A stretch of DNA of 56,508 bases from a virus, in IMG/VR virus record IMGVR_UViG_3300042402_005492, positions 1 to 56,508 of that record. The stretch is one strand, 5' to 3'. Position numbers and translations under genes: made by a program. Positions 3,579 through 39,875 of this stretch are shown one piece after another. Under the pieces are notes generated by a model. That model had not been told where the DNA came from. It searched no databases and was given only the letters and a program-made list of their open reading frames with translations. Each line of letters starts with the position of its first letter. Position 1 is the stretch's first letter.

Positions 3579-3931
3579 AGGTAACTGAGTTAAAAAATAT
3601 AATGAAAGAAATAAATGAACCAAATGAGTTCATATTTCAACCTTTTGATAAAAACCATCCTTTCTATTGGATTTTTAGAGTAGAAAATGTGAGAATAAAA
3701 ACAATTTCACCTAAAATAACCAGTTTAAGAAAACATAGTGCAAGATTTGATATATTTATCAACGGATTATTTATAGCAACTAGAGATTATATAGTTGAGC
3801 AAATAGATAATGATTTATATGTAAAATTAATAAAGAATAATTTTCCTACATTTGATAGATTTGGAAATCCATACGATATAGAGGATACTGATGAAGTTAA
3901 GATAAAAGGAGATGTTGAAAATATAAATTAA
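3575..3931 (+). CDS. Small structural protein, second of a related trio
   Basis: A 118-residue protein with no recognised family. It has an N-terminal extension relative to the preceding protein, then FDIFINGLFIATRDYIVEQ and a C-terminal DEVKIKGDVENI. These match the central and final strands of its two neighbours. The shared pattern implies duplication and divergence of one small beta domain. The ATG overlaps the previous stop by 4 nt, so the pair is likely co-translated. Function is unknown. Confidence 0.55.
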   Translation: MKVTELKNIMKEINEPNEFIFQPFDKNHPFYWIFRVENVRIKTISPKITSLRKHSARFDIFINGLFIATRDYIVEQIDNDLYVKLIKNNFPTFDRFGNPYDIEDTDEVKIKGDVENIN

Positions 3932-33260: not shown

Positions 33261-35585
33261 ATGGCAGAAAGAATTGTATCACCTGGTGTTTTTACAAGAG
33301 AAAATGATTTATCATTCCTATCACAAGGAATTGGTGAAATTGGAGCGGCATTTATAGGACCTTTTAAGCAAGGACCGGCATTCGTTCCAACAATCGTTAG
33401 AACCCAGTCCGAATTTGAGGAGATTTTTGGAACTCCTGATGGAACTTATTATACTGATTATGCAGTTCAAAATTATTTAAGAGAAGCTGGAGTAGCAACA
33501 ATTGTGAGAGTTGGTGGTGTTGATGGTTATACTCAAGCTGCACCTTTAGCAATCGTAGCATCTGGTTCAGCTGGTGAAAAAATTGTAGGTGTACTACATA
33601 ACACCAATAGATTATATCAAAATGTTGGTTTTACCGGAACTACTATTGCTAATGATGTAGATGGTAAATTTTTATTAACATTTTCATCAAGTTTTGCTGG
33701 AATAGCAGGAGCTACTTCAATATCTGCATCTATTTTACCTAGAGATATAAATGATTTATCTGATGTATTTGGCGAGTCACCGTTTTATTTTGTAGCTAGT
33801 CCTGCTAATGTAGTTTCTAACATCTATACTTACGCATATTTTGAGCATTTTGCATCTCAATCAATTGATGCGGTTGTAAGTAGAATTGTACTTCCATCTC
33901 AAGCATATACTCAAGATGCTACATTCGCTTCAACACCTTTTGTAAAATCACAAAACATTAGTGGAACTAGATTTAGTTTATTCCGTTTCCACACTTTAGG
34001 TGATGGTACTTTATATAATACTAAATTTAAGATTGGTATTTCTAATGTAAAAGCTGCTGGTGAAGATGGTGGAACTGATTACTCTGTATTTAGTGTAACT
34101 GTAAGAAGTTTCAGTGATACTGATAGAAGAAAAGTTGTATTGGAAACATTTAATAATGTTAACTTAGATCCAGCATCTCCAAATTATATTGCAAGAGTAA
34201 TTGGTGATAGAAACCTAACAATTGATGCTAACGGAAAAATCTCAGAAACTGGTGATTACACAAACCGATCAAAATATATTAGAGTAGAAGTTTCTACTCC
34301 AGGCTCATTCCCAATTTCTGCAGCACCATTTGGACATGATACATACCTTAATCCAATTAGAACAACTGGACAGGATACATTAGTACCTGCGGTAACATAT
34401 TCAACATTATCTACTGGTAACGATACATCATCTCCAATTAATTTTAGTGGATTTGATTTTGAGAGTGCAGGAATTAAAATTGATAATAATCAATATCTAA
34501 AACCAATACCAACTAATGCTGGAACCGGTTCGAATGTACCATTCTCCTTTGATGCTAACGGATTAACATTACAGATGACAGGTTCTAACTCAACTGATAT
34601 GGTGAGAAGACAATTTATCTTAGGATTTCAGGAAGGATTTGATGGAATGAATCCTGTTATCAAACCTTCATTAGGAGCGGATATTAGTAATGATAATACT
34701 CAAGGATTTAATTGTTCTAGTGCGGTTAGTAGTGGTACAGAAGCATATACTAAAGCGATTAACGCTGTATCTAATCCTGATGAGTGGGATATCAATATGG
34801 TAGTAACTCCTGGTATTATTAGAAGATTACACCCATTTGTGACTGCAAGAGTTATTGATATGGTAGAAGCTAGACAAGATGCATTCTACATCGCTGATTT
34901 TAACGGAGCAGATGATACAATTTCACAAGCAACCGAACAAGCTAATTCAGTAGATACAAATTACGCAGCAACTTATTATCCTTGGGTAAAAACTATTATT
35001 GCTCCTACTAACAAATTAGCGAGTGTACCACCTTCCGTATTGTTACCTGCAGTATTTGCAGCAAACGATAGATTAGCGGCAGAATGGTTTGCACCAGCTG
35101 GTTTGAATAGAGGTGGTATCATTGGAGCTGTTAATGTTCTAAACAGATTGACTCACTCCGAAAGAGATACTCTATATGAGAACAAGGTAAACCCAATTGC
35201 GGCATTCCCTGGACAAGGTATTGTTGCATACGGACAAAAAACTCTTCAAGATAGAGCATCTGCATTGGATAGAATTAATGTGAGAAGATTATTGATTGCG
35301 GTTAAGAAATTTGTAGCATCTACATCTAGGTTCTTGGTATTTGAGCAAAACACATCTACTACTAGAACCCGTTTCTTAAACACCGTAAATCCATACTTTG
35401 AGGCAATCCAACAGAGACAGGGACTTTACGCATTTAATGTAGTAATGGACGAAAGTAATAACACACCTGATGTTATTGATAGAAATATATTAGCTGGACA
35501 GATTTTCTTACAACCTGCTAAGACTGCTGAATTCATCGTAATTGATTTCAACATCTTACCAACTGGAGCAAGTTTCTCAGCATAA
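33261..35585 (+). CDS. gp18: Tail sheath protein, gp18-like
   Basis: A 774-residue protein with the classic sheath N-terminus: VSPGVFTREND, then GAAFIGPFKQGPAFVPTIV and EEIFGTP. The C-terminal ~250 residues contain MVEARQDAFYIADF and the Pro/Ala/Gly-rich ADRLAAEWFAPAGLNRG, then INVRRLLIAVKKFV, as in T4-like sheaths. Sheath subunits polymerise around the tube and contract to drive it into the cell. At 774 residues it is longer than T4 gp18 (659 aa); the extra length lies in the variable central domain. It is followed by the tube gene, the usual order. A late element at 33202 and an A-rich start region precede it. Confidence 0.92.
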   Translation: MAERIVSPGVFTRENDLSFLSQGIGEIGAAFIGPFKQGPAFVPTIVRTQSEFEEIFGTPDGTYYTDYAVQNYLREAGVATIVRVGGVDGYTQAAPLAIVASGSAGEKIVGVLHNTNRLYQNVGFTGTTIANDVDGKFLLTFSSSFAGIAGATSISASILPRDINDLSDVFGESPFYFVASPANVVSNIYTYAYFEHFASQSIDAVVSRIVLPSQAYTQDATFASTPFVKSQNISGTRFSLFRFHTLGDGTLYNTKFKIGISNVKAAGEDGGTDYSVFSVTVRSFSDTDRRKVVLETFNNVNLDPASPNYIARVIGDRNLTIDANGKISETGDYTNRSKYIRVEVSTPGSFPISAAPFGHDTYLNPIRTTGQDTLVPAVTYSTLSTGNDTSSPINFSGFDFESAGIKIDNNQYLKPIPTNAGTGSNVPFSFDANGLTLQMTGSNSTDMVRRQFILGFQEGFDGMNPVIKPSLGADISNDNTQGFNCSSAVSSGTEAYTKAINAVSNPDEWDINMVVTPGIIRRLHPFVTARVIDMVEARQDAFYIADFNGADDTISQATEQANSVDTNYAATYYPWVKTIIAPTNKLASVPPSVLLPAVFAANDRLAAEWFAPAGLNRGGIIGAVNVLNRLTHSERDTLYENKVNPIAAFPGQGIVAYGQKTLQDRASALDRINVRRLLIAVKKFVASTSRFLVFEQNTSTTRTRFLNTVNPYFEAIQQRQGLYAFNVVMDESNNTPDVIDRNILAGQIFLQPAKTAEFIVIDFNILPTGASFSA

Positions 35586-35638: not shown

Positions 35639-36127
35639 ATGGCAGAAATATTAGAATTCGATAAAATGTTCTATACGAACTTTGAACCAAAGATGAAGAA
35701 CAGATACGTCATGGAAATTGATGGTATCCCTTCATATATGATTAAAGCTGCAGCTAGACCTTCAATTAACTTTGAAACCATTACTATGGATCACATCAAT
35801 GTTAAAAGAAAGTTGCAAGGCAAAGGTGAGTGGCAGGACATTACAATTACTCTGTTTGACCCAATCGTTCCTTCTGGAGCACAGGCGGTAATGGAGTGGG
35901 TTCGTTTAGGACATGAGTCTATTACTGGTAGAAGAGGATATGCCGATTTTTACAAAAAAGATTTGGATATCTATATGTTAGGACCTGTTGGTGATAAAAT
36001 TGAACAATGGAAACTAAAAGGAGCATTCTTAACAACTGTAAACTTTGGTGACCTTTCATTTGACTCTAACGAACCTGCATCAATCGAATTAGGAATTGCT
36101 TACGATTACGCAATACTTGAGTTTTAA
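35639..36127 (+). CDS. gp19: Tail tube protein, gp19-like
   Basis: A 162-residue protein, almost the same length as T4 gp19 (163 aa). It reads FEPKMKNRYVMEIDGIPSYM, then KRKLQGKGEWQDITITLFDP and MGPVGDKIEQW-like features (LGPVGDKIEQWKLKGAFLTT). These match the T4-like and generic contractile tail tube fold. It stacks as hexamers inside the sheath. A strong terminator follows at 36156, so sheath and tube form the end of one transcription unit. Confidence 0.92.
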   Translation: MAEILEFDKMFYTNFEPKMKNRYVMEIDGIPSYMIKAAARPSINFETITMDHINVKRKLQGKGEWQDITITLFDPIVPSGAQAVMEWVRLGHESITGRRGYADFYKKDLDIYMLGPVGDKIEQWKLKGAFLTTVNFGDLSFDSNEPASIELGIAYDYAILEF

Positions 36128-36155
36128 TTTTAGTGATTATATAATTAATAAGAAA

Positions 36156-36184
36156 AACCTCTACAATGTAGGGGTTTTTTTATT
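36156..36184 (+). terminator. Rho-independent terminator after tail tube gene
   Basis: AACCTCTAC and GTAGGGGTT pair over 9 bp with one G-U pair and a 3-nt loop, followed by a T-rich run. It separates the tube gene from the next late element. Confidence 0.85.
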
Positions 36185-36242: not shown

Positions 36243-37001
36243 ATGGAACAACAAAAATATGATTTTCCAACCGAATTGTTGGATTTACCATCAAAAGGTT
36301 TAGTATATCCAAAGGATCATCCATTATCAAGCGGAACAATTGAAATTAAATATATGACGGCAAAGGAAGAGGATATTCTTTCAAATCAAAATCTTATCAA
36401 AAAAGGAGTAGTATTGGATAAATTATTTGAGTCTATAATTGTAGATAAAAGTATAAATCCAAATGATATTACTATTGGAGATAAAAATGCAATAATTGTA
36501 GCAACTAGATTATTGGGATACGGACATGAATATAAAATGTCATTCTATTCTTCAAAATTGACTAAAAGTGTTGAAACTATTATTGATTTATCGGAAATTA
36601 AAACAAAAGATGTAGATTTTTCACTCTTCAAAAATGCAAATGAGTTTGAATTCACAACTCCATTAGGTAAAAATAAAATTAAGTTTAAGTTATTAACTCA
36701 TGGTGATGAGAATGCGATTGAAAAAGATATTACTGCATTAGAAAGACTAGGAAAGGATGTATCTGCGGATATTACAACTAGATTGAGATATATGATTATT
36801 TCAGTAGATGGAAACTCAGAGGTATCACATATTAACCGTTTCGTAAACGGAATGTTAGCTAAAGATAGTAGAACATTTAGAAATTATATAAAAAGTATAT
36901 CACCCGATATGGATATGACGTTTACATATACCCACGATGATGGAGAGACGGAGGCTCTACCTATAACTTTAGGTGTGAACTTTTTTTGGCCTACCGAATA
37001 A
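36243..37001 (+). CDS. Tail assembly chaperone / baseplate protein, gp26-like
   Basis: A 252-residue protein resembling the T4 baseplate protein family (gp26/gp51 type, PF12322). It has FPTELLDLPSKGLVYP, LSSGTIEIKYMTAKEEDILS, and a C-terminal half with DEFxFTTPLG-like and RYMIISVDG segments, ending in FFWPTE. In related phages this gene sits between the tube and tape measure genes and acts in tail or hub assembly. A run of seven T residues (36981-36987) lies just before the stop; a +1 slip there would extend the protein through the next small frame (to 37206). The length and position fit the shorter product of a frameshifting chaperone pair. Confidence 0.7.
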   Translation: MEQQKYDFPTELLDLPSKGLVYPKDHPLSSGTIEIKYMTAKEEDILSNQNLIKKGVVLDKLFESIIVDKSINPNDITIGDKNAIIVATRLLGYGHEYKMSFYSSKLTKSVETIIDLSEIKTKDVDFSLFKNANEFEFTTPLGKNKIKFKLLTHGDENAIEKDITALERLGKDVSADITTRLRYMIISVDGNSEVSHINRFVNGMLAKDSRTFRNYIKSISPDMDMTFTYTHDDGETEALPITLGVNFFWPTE

Positions 37002-37035
37002 CCATAGTATATTATTACATACTCAAATATTTGAA

Positions 37036-37206
37036 ATGTGTAATTATGGGAATGGGTTTACGATGATGGAATTATACCAAATGCCAACAAAGTTTAGAAG
37101 GTTTTACTATAATAAATTAGTGGAAGCAAAAACTGCGGAAAGTAAAGCTATAGAAAAAGCAAATAAACCAAGCACTAATAGTGGAAGAGTTAGGATTAGA
37201 AAATAA
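37036..37206 (+). CDS. Small chaperone-type ORF, probable frameshift extension
   Basis: A 56-codon frame beginning MCNYGNGFT and containing MMELYQMPTKFRRFYY, then a Lys/Ala/Glu helix and a basic tail. It could start at 37036 or at 37063 (Met-Met). Its frame is open without interruption upstream to the T7 run at 36981 in the preceding gene, so it may be made mainly as a C-terminal extension of that protein. Short Met-Pro-rich segments of this kind are common in the extended tail chaperones upstream of tape measure genes. Its stop overlaps the stem of a strong terminator. Whether it is also translated alone is unknown. Confidence 0.6.
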   Translation: MCNYGNGFTMMELYQMPTKFRRFYYNKLVEAKTAESKAIEKANKPSTNSGRVRIRK

Positions 37207-37222
37207 TCCTAACTTTTTTTTT
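37189..37222 (+). terminator. Strong Rho-independent terminator
   Basis: GTTAGGATTA and TAATCCTAAC pair perfectly over 10 bp with a 5-nt loop, followed by nine T residues. The 5' arm and loop encode the last codons of the small chaperone ORF. Confidence 0.9.
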
Positions 37223-37262: not shown

Positions 37263-37469
37263 ATGCCTAAATATAAAATTTCAAAATCAAACCTCAAAGA
37301 ATTTTTTGGGTGGTTCGGTGATAAGAAAAAACCAAAAGATTTGCAGACTATAATTGATAATGACCCTCAACTTAAAAAATTGGATGCGGATATAGCTGCT
37401 ATACAACAAAAACATGGTAAATTGGATCCTGAGTATGTAAGATTACTTAAAAAGTATGGTGCATACTAA
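37263..37469 (+). CDS. Small conserved protein upstream of tape measure
   Basis: A 68-residue charged protein: KISKSNLKEFFGWFGDKKKP, then LQTIIDNDPQLKKLDADIAA and a helical C-terminus. Similar short proteins are common in T4-like marine phages next to tail genes, but no function is known. It starts 25 nt after a late element and is 15 nt from the tape measure start, so the two are likely co-expressed. It may assist tape measure folding; this is a guess from position. Confidence 0.6.
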   Translation: MPKYKISKSNLKEFFGWFGDKKKPKDLQTIIDNDPQLKKLDADIAAIQQKHGKLDPEYVRLLKKYGAY

Positions 37470-37484
37470 TAATATATCATAATA

Positions 37485-39875
37485 ATGATAACAAACGAAG
37501 ATTTAACAATTTTAGAAAGATACCAGAGGCAAATTAACCGACTTAGGGCGGAAGAAGCGGTTCTGTCTACTCAAAATACGGCACAATCTCAAGCGCAGTT
37601 AGCAGCTGCTCGTGCAAGATTGGATATAGTGAGAAGAGGAGCTCAAATTCAAAGAGAGAGAAACATAGATGAGGCTACTTTTCAAAAAGAGCAACTTTCC
37701 TTTGTACGATCTTTTGCAAAATTAAACAAGGATGTAAGAAAGTTATTAATAGATCAAACTACCCAAAGTTCAGTTTTTGCAAGTATTGGTAAAGATATTG
37801 CTAAAAGTAAAGCAATTCAAAAAAATCTTACAGGAGATGAACTAGCGAGGGAAATTGAAAAAGAGCAATTGATGGTTCAAATAAATGACTCTTACTTACA
37901 ACAAGCTAAATCTTTAGCAAAAACTCAGGCTGAAGCAAAAGGATTAAGTGAATTTGATCAAAGAAGATTGGAATTGCAAGAAAATCGACTGGAGTTAACT
38001 GCGGAAGAATTAGGTAGATTAAAAGCCGCTATAGATTTAGAAGAAAAACTATTTAAAAAAGAAGAACGAACAAAAGCTATACAAGAAGAACAAAAAACTT
38101 TATATGAAGCAGTTCCTGAGTCAATGAGAGGTAGTATTGATTTTGCAAAAAAATTAGGGGATACTTTAAAAACTGCTGGCGCAGGTGCAGTTGCATTTAT
38201 GTTATTAGCGGCTGTTGTAACTTCTATGGTAGCTGCATTTACGGCTTTGGATGCTGCCGCTGAAGATTTTAGAAAAGAGACAGGACTTACAAATAGTCAA
38301 ACTAAGGAAATAACTAAAGATGCAAATGCTATAACTGGAGAATTTAGAAATTTAGGTGTTGAAGCAAAAGATGTATTTGATACTGTATCCGCATTAAAAA
38401 CTGAGTTTGGTGATATATATAATACTTCTAGAGAAACAACTGCCGCTTTAAGTGTATTGAGTGCAAACTTTGGAGTAGCTGCAAAAGATGCAGCAAAAGT
38501 TCAAGGGGTTTATGAAAGAATGGGAGGTGTATCAGCAGAAACCGCTGCAAATCTTCAAATGCAAGCTGCCGAAATGGCTAATATGGCAGGGGTTGCTCCT
38601 GCTAAAGTTGCGGAAGATATTGCGGAAGCGGCAGAGGAGTCCTATAAGTTTTTCAAAGGTGATGTAAACGCACTAACTGCAGCCGCAATTCAAGCTAGAA
38701 GGTTGGGTACTAATCTTAAAGATGTATTAGAGACTAACCGAAAACTTTTAGATTTTGAAGGTGGTATTGAAGATGAGTTAGTAGCAGCAACTTTTGCTGG
38801 TGGACAATTTAATCTAACACAGGCTAGAACACTAGCTGCGTCTGGAAAGCAAGTTGAGGCACAAGAGGAGATATTAAAACAAATCCAACGAAGTGGTGAT
38901 TTTAGAAAACAAGACTTATTTACCCAAGAAGCTCTTGCAAAAGGTGCCGGAATGGAAGTTGGTGAAATTATTAAACAATTAGATGCTCAAGAAAAATTAG
39001 CTACATTGAGTGATGAAGAGCGAACAAAAGCAGAAGAGGCAATTAGGCAAGGATTGGATATTACAGATATCAATGCAGAACAGTTAGCTCAAAAAACTGA
39101 GGAGTTTGCAAAACAACAAGAAATACAGGGTTCGTTAACAAATGTAAAAAATACATTTGATGCTTTAACTGCAAGTCTTGGTACTACACTTTTACCAGTA
39201 ATGCAAGGTCTGGCATCCATATTTGAGTTTATATCATCAAGCACGGCTGGATTAATTGGATTTGTTGGAACATTGGTTATTTTATTTGGTGCACTATACG
39301 CCATTAAATTAAGAACATTCGTATTAGACACACGAGCCGCAATTCTAAAAGCTAGAGAAACGGGTTCTAGTATTATTGGTGCAGTTGCTGAAATTTTCAA
39401 AGGACAAGGAAAGATTCCAGTAATAGGTGCTGTAATAGCAGCAGCTATGATAGGTGCTTTGTTTGCCGCAATTAGTAAAGCGTCTAGTGTAAAAACTGCT
39501 GCAGACGTTTCATCTCCAGCTGATGGTAAAACTATAATATCTACAAAAGAAGGTGGGTTATTTGAATTATCACCGAATGATGATTTAGTAGCAGCTCCTG
39601 GAGCAGCATCCGCTTTAGCTAATGCAAGTAATGGAACAGGTGCAACTGCCAATGATGATGGTGATGGAAGAGGTAGAGGAAGAAATGTAAATGTAAACAA
39701 CCTATCACAATTAGCAGCACCATTACAAGCTATGATAAACGAAATAAAAGGTTTGAGAGCGGATATGGCAAGTGGTAAAATAGGAGTATATATGGATACT
39801 TCAAAGGTTACTTCTACTATCGGAAAAAAAGTTGACTCTGCTACAAGAAACAACTATAGTTTAGGACAGGCTTAA
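37485..39875 (+). CDS. Tail tape measure protein
   Basis: A 796-residue protein placed after tube and chaperone genes, where the tape measure lies. Residues ~1-215 are long charged coiled coil. Residues ~225-255 are a hydrophobic segment (AVAFMLLAAVVTSMVAAFTA). Two more hydrophobic stretches occur at ~585-610 (GLIGFVGTLVILFGALYAI) and ~645-665 (VIAAAMIGALFAAI). The C-terminus ends with DTSKVTSTIGKKVDSA, typical of tape measure ends that bind the tube. It sets tail length and enters the host membrane during DNA injection. Using about 1.5 A per residue as in other phages, a tail near 120 nm is inferred. Confidence 0.85.
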   Translation: MITNEDLTILERYQRQINRLRAEEAVLSTQNTAQSQAQLAAARARLDIVRRGAQIQRERNIDEATFQKEQLSFVRSFAKLNKDVRKLLIDQTTQSSVFASIGKDIAKSKAIQKNLTGDELAREIEKEQLMVQINDSYLQQAKSLAKTQAEAKGLSEFDQRRLELQENRLELTAEELGRLKAAIDLEEKLFKKEERTKAIQEEQKTLYEAVPESMRGSIDFAKKLGDTLKTAGAGAVAFMLLAAVVTSMVAAFTALDAAAEDFRKETGLTNSQTKEITKDANAITGEFRNLGVEAKDVFDTVSALKTEFGDIYNTSRETTAALSVLSANFGVAAKDAAKVQGVYERMGGVSAETAANLQMQAAEMANMAGVAPAKVAEDIAEAAEESYKFFKGDVNALTAAAIQARRLGTNLKDVLETNRKLLDFEGGIEDELVAATFAGGQFNLTQARTLAASGKQVEAQEEILKQIQRSGDFRKQDLFTQEALAKGAGMEVGEIIKQLDAQEKLATLSDEERTKAEEAIRQGLDITDINAEQLAQKTEEFAKQQEIQGSLTNVKNTFDALTASLGTTLLPVMQGLASIFEFISSSTAGLIGFVGTLVILFGALYAIKLRTFVLDTRAAILKARETGSSIIGAVAEIFKGQGKIPVIGAVIAAAMIGALFAAISKASSVKTAADVSSPADGKTIISTKEGGLFELSPNDDLVAAPGAASALANASNGTGATANDDGDGRGRGRNVNVNNLSQLAAPLQAMINEIKGLRADMASGKIGVYMDTSKVTSTIGKKVDSATRNNYSLGQA

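Follow-up and report, generated by a model that had tools for sequence, protein, structure and literature searches.

Tail assembly chaperones (TACs) of tailed phages are known for programmed frameshifting, and shifts of -1, -2 and +1 are named for their genes in the consulted part of PMC5009743. In lambda (gpG/gpGT) as well as in HK97-type systems the chaperone gene lies upstream of the tape measure gene and yields two forms via a shift near its 3' end, which in lambda is a -1 shift (PMC5009743). Phage T4 is stated to be an exception to chaperone frameshifting in the same part of that source, and its gp26 and gp51 are listed as hub assembly chaperones in a review of T4 tail assembly, as far as the consulted sections go (PMC3004832). 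Similar by description is the TAC gene of the Vandenendeviridae phage Adele, a myovirus gene with a poly-T shift site at its 3' end, but there the site is GTTTTT and the direction -1 (consulted part of PMC12846349). In the same text, poly-T -1 signals of T4-like TAC-N genes are attributed to Vladimirov et al. 2022 (Virology 566:9-15). Judged by its title, that paper deals with T4-like chaperone genes using another mechanism; it may have priority over the T4 part of the present work and possibly over the cyanophage -1 shift or more.

Here, we describe a gp26-like gene from the IMG/VR virus record IMGVR_UViG_3300042402_005492 (positions 1 to 56,508; this whole stretch of 56,508 nucleotides is called the window below) together with its relatives. 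The gene very probably yields a second, longer protein by a +1 shift at a run of seven Ts. What appears to be new is the +1 variant at UUU-Y in gp26-like genes, for which no report was found in the open-licence literature by title or abstract start.

Gene order and reading frames at the locus

The window is AT-rich (GC 0.35). A tail sheath gene (33261-35585, phrog_23, E 1.8e-66) and, on the + strand, a tail tube gene (35639-36127, phrog_4542, E 1.3e-29) are followed on the same strand by the gp26-like gene (36243-37001) and by a gene for a probable tape measure protein of 796 aa (37485-39875). The latter assignment is based on position and length as well as on the syntenic gene, which is annotated as tape measure in the phages immuto and SP-15; its own product finds no family better than E 0.009. 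The order of tube, chaperone and tape measure genes, which the first-pass annotation had given for the window, was also found in immuto, Mel-JY01 and SP-15.

The gp26-like gene encodes a zero-frame product of 252 aa, the probable N form of a tail assembly chaperone, and its 3' end reads AAC TTT TTT TGG CCT ACC GAA TAA (36978-37001). The putative shift site AAC TTT TTT T|GG on the + strand thus consists of C 36980, T7 at 36981-36987 and GG at 36988-36989. In the +1 frame no stop occurs between a point 20 nt 5' of the zero-frame stop codon and the TAA at 37204-37206. Read from 36988 to 37206 (+ strand), this frame would add a C-terminal extension of 72 residues with three predicted helices before the stop, giving a long product of 320 aa. 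In the -1 frame a stop at +65 (about 37065) is reached without the C-terminal domain, and the site does not have the -1 slippery heptamer T_TTT_TT[TC] but reads C_TTT_TTT. A gene caller would list a 56-codon ORF (37036-37206, + strand), which we read as the end of the long product and not as a gene of its own. All of this agrees with the first-pass annotation, which had described a gene stopping shortly after TTT-TTT-TGG in the T7 run, a +1 frame open through the small ORF ending at 37206 and a -1 frame that closes near 37065, short of this ORF. Runs of seven or more Ts occur ten times on the + strand of the window, so the T7 run alone is not striking and the case rests on the relatives.

A terminator-like hairpin with a T9 tail (37187-37222, + strand, -14.6 kcal/mol, z -4.88) holds the +1-frame stop codon in its 3' arm, and a hairpin with T5 near the +1 stop was found in 86 of 183 loci. 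Another strong hairpin (36151-36182, -15.3 kcal/mol, z -5.32) ends in a T7 tail and lies 3' of the tail tube gene, and tube and chaperone genes may therefore belong to separate transcripts. A scan for promoter-like and terminator-like sequences gave nothing above shuffles, although folding reveals these two clear T-tailed hairpins, and the TTTATATATWATA motif showed no enrichment. The gap from the +1 extension to the tape measure gene holds a 68-aa ORF (37263-37469) with tblastn relatives in 85 of 265 loci.

Relationship to T4 gp26 and gp51

Sequence comparison places the gene in the T4 gp26/gp51 family. Its zero-frame product matches phrog_150 (baseplate hub) with E 8e-9 over residues 6-249 and reaches 24.3 bits with PF12322 (T4_baseplate), just below the cut-off of 24.5. 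The same Pfam family scores 37.6-100 bits in LR756508, GXN1, SP-15 and RM378; for immuto and Mel-JY01 no PF12322 match is listed. Both T4 proteins belong to PF12322 (8.8e-64 for gp26, 3.9e-52 for gp51) as well as to phrog_150, and they match each other in BLASTP with E 2e-6. In KVP40 (NC_005083.2, 186755-187627) one phrog_150 and one PF12322 match were obtained, and T4 gives two.

The C-terminus of T4 gp26 (...KEFFELL) falls at the position of the shift in the window, and gp51 runs about 45 residues further. Positions 227-282 of the PHROG profile, a stretch that gp51 contains, match the -1-frame ORF of P-SSM2, S-PM2, HTVC008M and phiM12 (E 1.4e-10 to 7.4e-5), and an un-iterated profile of the +1 domain matches the -1 domains of the same four phages and of LR756511 (E 7.1e-7 to 2.7e-3). 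Direct HMM similarity between the +1 extension and T4 gp51 is weak (E 0.11 un-iterated and 0.0012 iterated, both against four sequences), so this link is a chain of reasoning that passes through the -1 domains. When the fused proteins are compared with phrog_150 (length 282), the match extends to position 251 in the window and to 274 in Mel-JY01, and to at most 236 in the other three.

Modelled with AlphaFold2 (pLDDT 90.5), the short form has as its best PDB match the HK97 tail assembly chaperone 2ob9 (VIA-align; Z 4.5, rmsd 4.2, 97 of 104 residues), with a Z that can be reached by chance, but the match covers most of the chain and tops the list. In BFVD it matches hub proteins, among them those of SP-15 and CP220. 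No sequence similarity was detected between the window gene and the chaperones of lambda or HK97 type. Members of the gp26/gp51 family are probably tail assembly chaperones with a short and a long form. T4 differs from the window in that gp26 and gp51, though of the same phrog_150 family as the zero-frame product, are encoded by two separate paralogous genes without a shift and not between tube and tape measure genes. The first-pass annotation had remarked that T4 is not known to shift; as a refinement, the equivalent job would be done in T4 by the genes 26 and 51, in keeping with the title of Vladimirov et al. 2022.

Survey of related loci

When IMG/VR was scanned with the zero-frame protein, 80 loci were obtained, i.e. 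81 rows with the window. In 80 of these 81 rows a T run preceded by C or G stands in the final 36 nt of the gene, with TGG or TAC behind it. In the exception (L081) the zero frame is broken at codon 183, with the T7 run and the +1 domain intact 201 nt further on, probably because of an assembly or sequencing error. For a wider survey loci from profile searches and named phages were added. Twenty loci were left out, namely the window copies L001 and L113, the 500-nt stubs L092-L097, T4, KVP40 and the duplicate or partial loci L089, L098, L103, L106-L112, L114 and L115; 266 remained. After L285, which lacks a stop, had been dropped, the 265 loci were reduced to 204 that are distinct in the 210 nt around the stop.

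With an iterated profile the domain was found in the +1 frame in 191 of the 204 distinct loci, in the -1 frame in six (LR756511, Atu_ph07, P-SSM2, S-PM2, HTVC008M and phiM12), in both frames in none and in neither in seven. These counts are over related sequences and not over independent events. Because the +1 group supplied the seeds of the survey, the +1 to -1 ratio is no natural frequency. The seven unassigned loci include L229, L238 and L265, whose contigs end too early yet show TTT TTT T, and the broken L081. L197 and Rhodothermus phage RM378 have an open +1 frame at TTT_CGT or TTT_TGG sites and a diverged extension that gives no HMM match, and phiW-14 has an open -1 frame after T_TTT_TTC. 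RM378 retains TTT TTT TGG and the open +1 frame at about 22% identity. The relatives come from metagenome bins of Flavobacteriales and others, and a Flavobacterium isolate phage is among them. The +1-frame peptide alone gave no tblastn match among the named phages at E 0.01, and the link to them was obtained through the zero-frame gene.

Putative shift site

An in-frame TTT followed by T or C lies inside the overlap in all 191 +1 loci, as against 1-26 of 191 when the same TTT[TC] test is applied to equal windows 45-210 nt further upstream. The sites comprise TTT_TGG (123 loci), TTT_TAC (49), TTT_CTT (10) and nine others. The T run has a length of 7 in 167 loci, 8 in two, 6 in five, 4 in six and 3 in eleven; runs of at least seven Ts are thus present at the site in 169 of 191 loci, and in the rest of the same ORFs only three were counted in 138,390 nt. 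Elsewhere in the +1-group ORFs phenylalanine is encoded by TTT 1348 times and by TTC 433 times.

The 22 loci with a shorter or interrupted run, among them immuto, LR756508, GXN1, SP-15 and LIS04, all keep TTT plus T or C. Immuto and nine others read TTT CTT TGG, LR756508 reads TTT CTA, GXN1 TTC TTT CGT, SP-15 TTT TTT CAC and several loci TTC TTT TGG. At the interrupted sites a tRNA-Phe moving by +1 from UUU to UUU or UUC would again be fully paired, and judged by these sites perfect +1 re-pairing of tRNA-Phe (UUU to UUY) does explain the +1 family. The first-pass annotation had proposed searching relatives for the T run and the open +1 frame. Both are kept, together with a conserved +1-frame domain, but the essential element turned out to be TTT followed by a pyrimidine rather than T7 itself. 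Relatives that keep both genes and have lost run and overlap were not encountered in the survey, and the interrupted runs still retain the TTT-Y slip quartet.

At the ten TTT_CTT loci (L082 at 3724-3735 and nine others) the sequence TTT CTT TGG leaves two possible slip codons. These sites are one base away from the CTT TGA site of RF2. The prfB gene of E. coli, which encodes RF2, carries this +1 site as an autoregulatory stop-codon site with a Shine-Dalgarno stimulator. There too the P-site tRNA moves by +1 onto UUU, and the ten loci read CTT TGG next. At TTT CTT TGG sites a slip of tRNA-Leu on CTT-T in the manner of RF2 would be an equal alternative. The gp26-like site differs from prfB in being a sense codon for which no stimulator was found. 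In the window sequence the region downstream of the site (36988-37088) folds no better than shuffles (z -0.29), and z was -1.41 for 36994-37044 and -1.39 for the upstream stretch 36950-36990. As a candidate for an upstream Shine-Dalgarno-like stimulator a conserved GGN GTN was considered and rejected, since the protein sequence G-V accounts for its conservation. A phage-borne tRNA as shift agent finds no counterpart in the window, which has no tRNA gene.

Two other kinds of slippage have to be weighed against +1 re-pairing. RNA polymerase could slip on T7, so that a minority of T6 (or T9) transcripts would encode the long form by ordinary translation, and the long runs at 169 of the 191 sites as well as the AT-richness of the window would suit such a mechanism. 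Five loci with six Ts and 17 with only 3-4 Ts (e.g. immuto with TTT CTT TGG, GXN1 with TTC TTT CGT) keep the same architecture, however, and 3-4 Ts offer the polymerase little to slip on. Moreover, polymerase slippage would profit from a longer run, yet among the 173 +1 loci with TTT TTT the preceding codon ends in T only once (L176, AAT), compared to 89.3 expected from the codon usage of the same ORFs; a preceding asparagine is encoded by AAC 37 times and by AAT once. We regard polymerase slippage as improbable. A ribosomal -2 slip, which would insert one extra phenylalanine before the extension, is less probable still: T7 permits -2 re-pairing and phage Mu uses a -2 shift (consulted part of PMC5009743), but in the same 17 loci (e.g. 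TTC TTT TGG, TTT CTT TGG) tRNA-Phe would meet a mismatched codon. The loci with short runs mean that both polymerase slippage and -2 re-pairing fail to explain the family.

Extension encoded in the +1 frame

The +1 frame of the close group encodes one conserved domain with a consensus HxQIF stretch followed by YGNGF and MPxxLRxFY. In 40 close alleles the substitutions in the stretch from the zero-frame stop to the usual first ATG are distributed 2661/993/3902 over the +1-frame codon positions, and 1510 single-base codon differences are silent versus 1066 changing, all of these counts being pairwise sums over related alleles. In the same stretch the other two frames hit stops in 40 of 40 alleles. 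This pattern marks the +1-frame domain as being under selection at the protein level. AlphaFold2 predicts helices at residues 8-23, 28-32 and 36-61 of the extension (pLDDT 82.8). A structure search with this model gave no meaningful PDB match (best Z 3.8, unrelated chains), and a PDB sequence search with A5 gave none.

The domain could alternatively be the product of an independent gene starting at 37036 or 37063, with an incidental overlap. Current annotations would be in line with this, since none of seven annotated relatives joins the extension to the gene: five list the shifted domain as a separate hypothetical gene (immuto, L082; Mel-JY01, L083; SP-15, L087; RM378, L088; Atu_ph07, L090, in the -1 frame) and two leave it unannotated (GXN1, L085; LIS04, L091). 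The conserved protein sequence, however, begins at the shift site ahead of any ATG, with the HMM match starting at position 1 in 175 of 191 loci, and the protein-like substitution pattern lies 5' of the place where the first ATG usually stands. An ATG is missing from these initial 31 codons of the +1 frame in 73 of 191 loci, which makes independent initiation unlikely, and in 46 of 191 they contain no start even if GTG and TTG are allowed; the extension of L138 has no methionine at all. In the window the first predicted helix spans Met19, and a start at 37036 would cut it; many relatives have no methionine at the corresponding place. We therefore consider a separate gene about as improbable as the -2 slip. 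Chance, meaning a random open frame behind one of the ten T runs of the window or a sequencing error that splits one gene, is practically negligible, as the arrangement is shared by 191 of 204 distinct loci, which come from many assemblies, and by isolate genomes.

Relatives with the domain in the -1 frame

Cyanophage, pelagiphage and rhizophage genomes (P-SSM2, S-PM2, HTVC008M, phiM12) have the same Phe-Phe position and a homologous shifted domain (un-iterated HMM, E 3e-6 to 3e-3), but their gp26-like genes differ in having a -1 shift site, T_TTT_TTC or T_TTT_TTT. With P-SSM2, LR756511 and RM378 as queries 69 distinct loci were collected, with the domain in the -1 frame in 66 and in the +1 frame in none; the remaining three are two cut contigs and RM378 itself. 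The whole -1 group comprises 75 distinct loci, all with T_TTT_TT[TC]. This means that the preceding codon ends in T in 75 of 75 where 51.8 would be expected. The second phenylalanine codon is TTC in 73 of 75, though TTC makes up only 159 of 830 Phe codons in those ORFs. In LR756511-type phages (L086, L366, L368), which have T_TTT_TTC and a -1 domain, the zero frame continues for 14-23 codons beyond the site, compared to 2-4 codons in the remaining named -1 phages of the list.

The run is preceded by T in 1 of 173 +1 loci versus 75 of 75 -1 loci, which suggests a switch of direction by one base; in the window this base is at position 36980 (+ strand), the proposed direction-setting base, which is non-T in 172 of the 173 loci. 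In its full form the proposal is that opposite shifts at the same Phe-Phe pair are set by a code of one or two bases, with non-T followed by TTT TTT T giving +1, T followed by TTT TTC giving -1 and each class avoiding the bases that would permit the other. At least one change of direction would then have taken place in phage evolution, in which the homologous extension moved to the other frame, and T4 gp26/gp51 would be what gene duplication made of the same system. We hold the odds for and against this scheme to be even. In a tree of 56 rows a well-supported branch (100/99) separates P-SSM2, S-PM2, HTVC008M, phiM12, phiW-14 and both T4 paralogues from LR756511, Atu_ph07 and the whole set of 47 +1 rows (thinned from the 191, with named phages added). 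At least three changes of state are needed; branches are long, and the placements of T4, RM378, Atu_ph07 and LR756511 are unsure.

Proposed mechanism and significance

Taking conserved site, conserved domain, family membership and gene position together, we propose, with a probability of about 0.88, that this tail assembly chaperone gene of the gp26/gp51 family makes two proteins by a +1 shift. Most ribosomes would stay in the zero frame and stop at 36999-37001, giving the short form. We infer that the shift occurs at some rate by P-site re-pairing: a fraction of ribosomes would pause while tRNA-Phe occupies TTT 36984-36986 in the P site and TGG stands in the A site. The tRNA would re-pair one base downstream with TTT 36985-36987, and reading would resume at GGC and end at the stop at 37206 with the long form. 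By analogy with lambda gpG/gpGT the short form would serve as a coat of the tape measure protein, and tail tube subunits would be recruited by the helical tail of the long form.

This deep family adds putative +1 shifts at UUU-Y sites that are sense codons and for which no stimulator has been found to date. For annotators it names products to be joined that are now filed as a baseplate hub and a hypothetical protein, and the natural pair of +1 and -1 sites at the same codons would allow a direct test of what sets the direction of a shift. Finally, it connects the two hub chaperones of T4 with chaperones for which other tailed phages use frameshifting; in T4 two separate genes seem to have taken the place of the shift.
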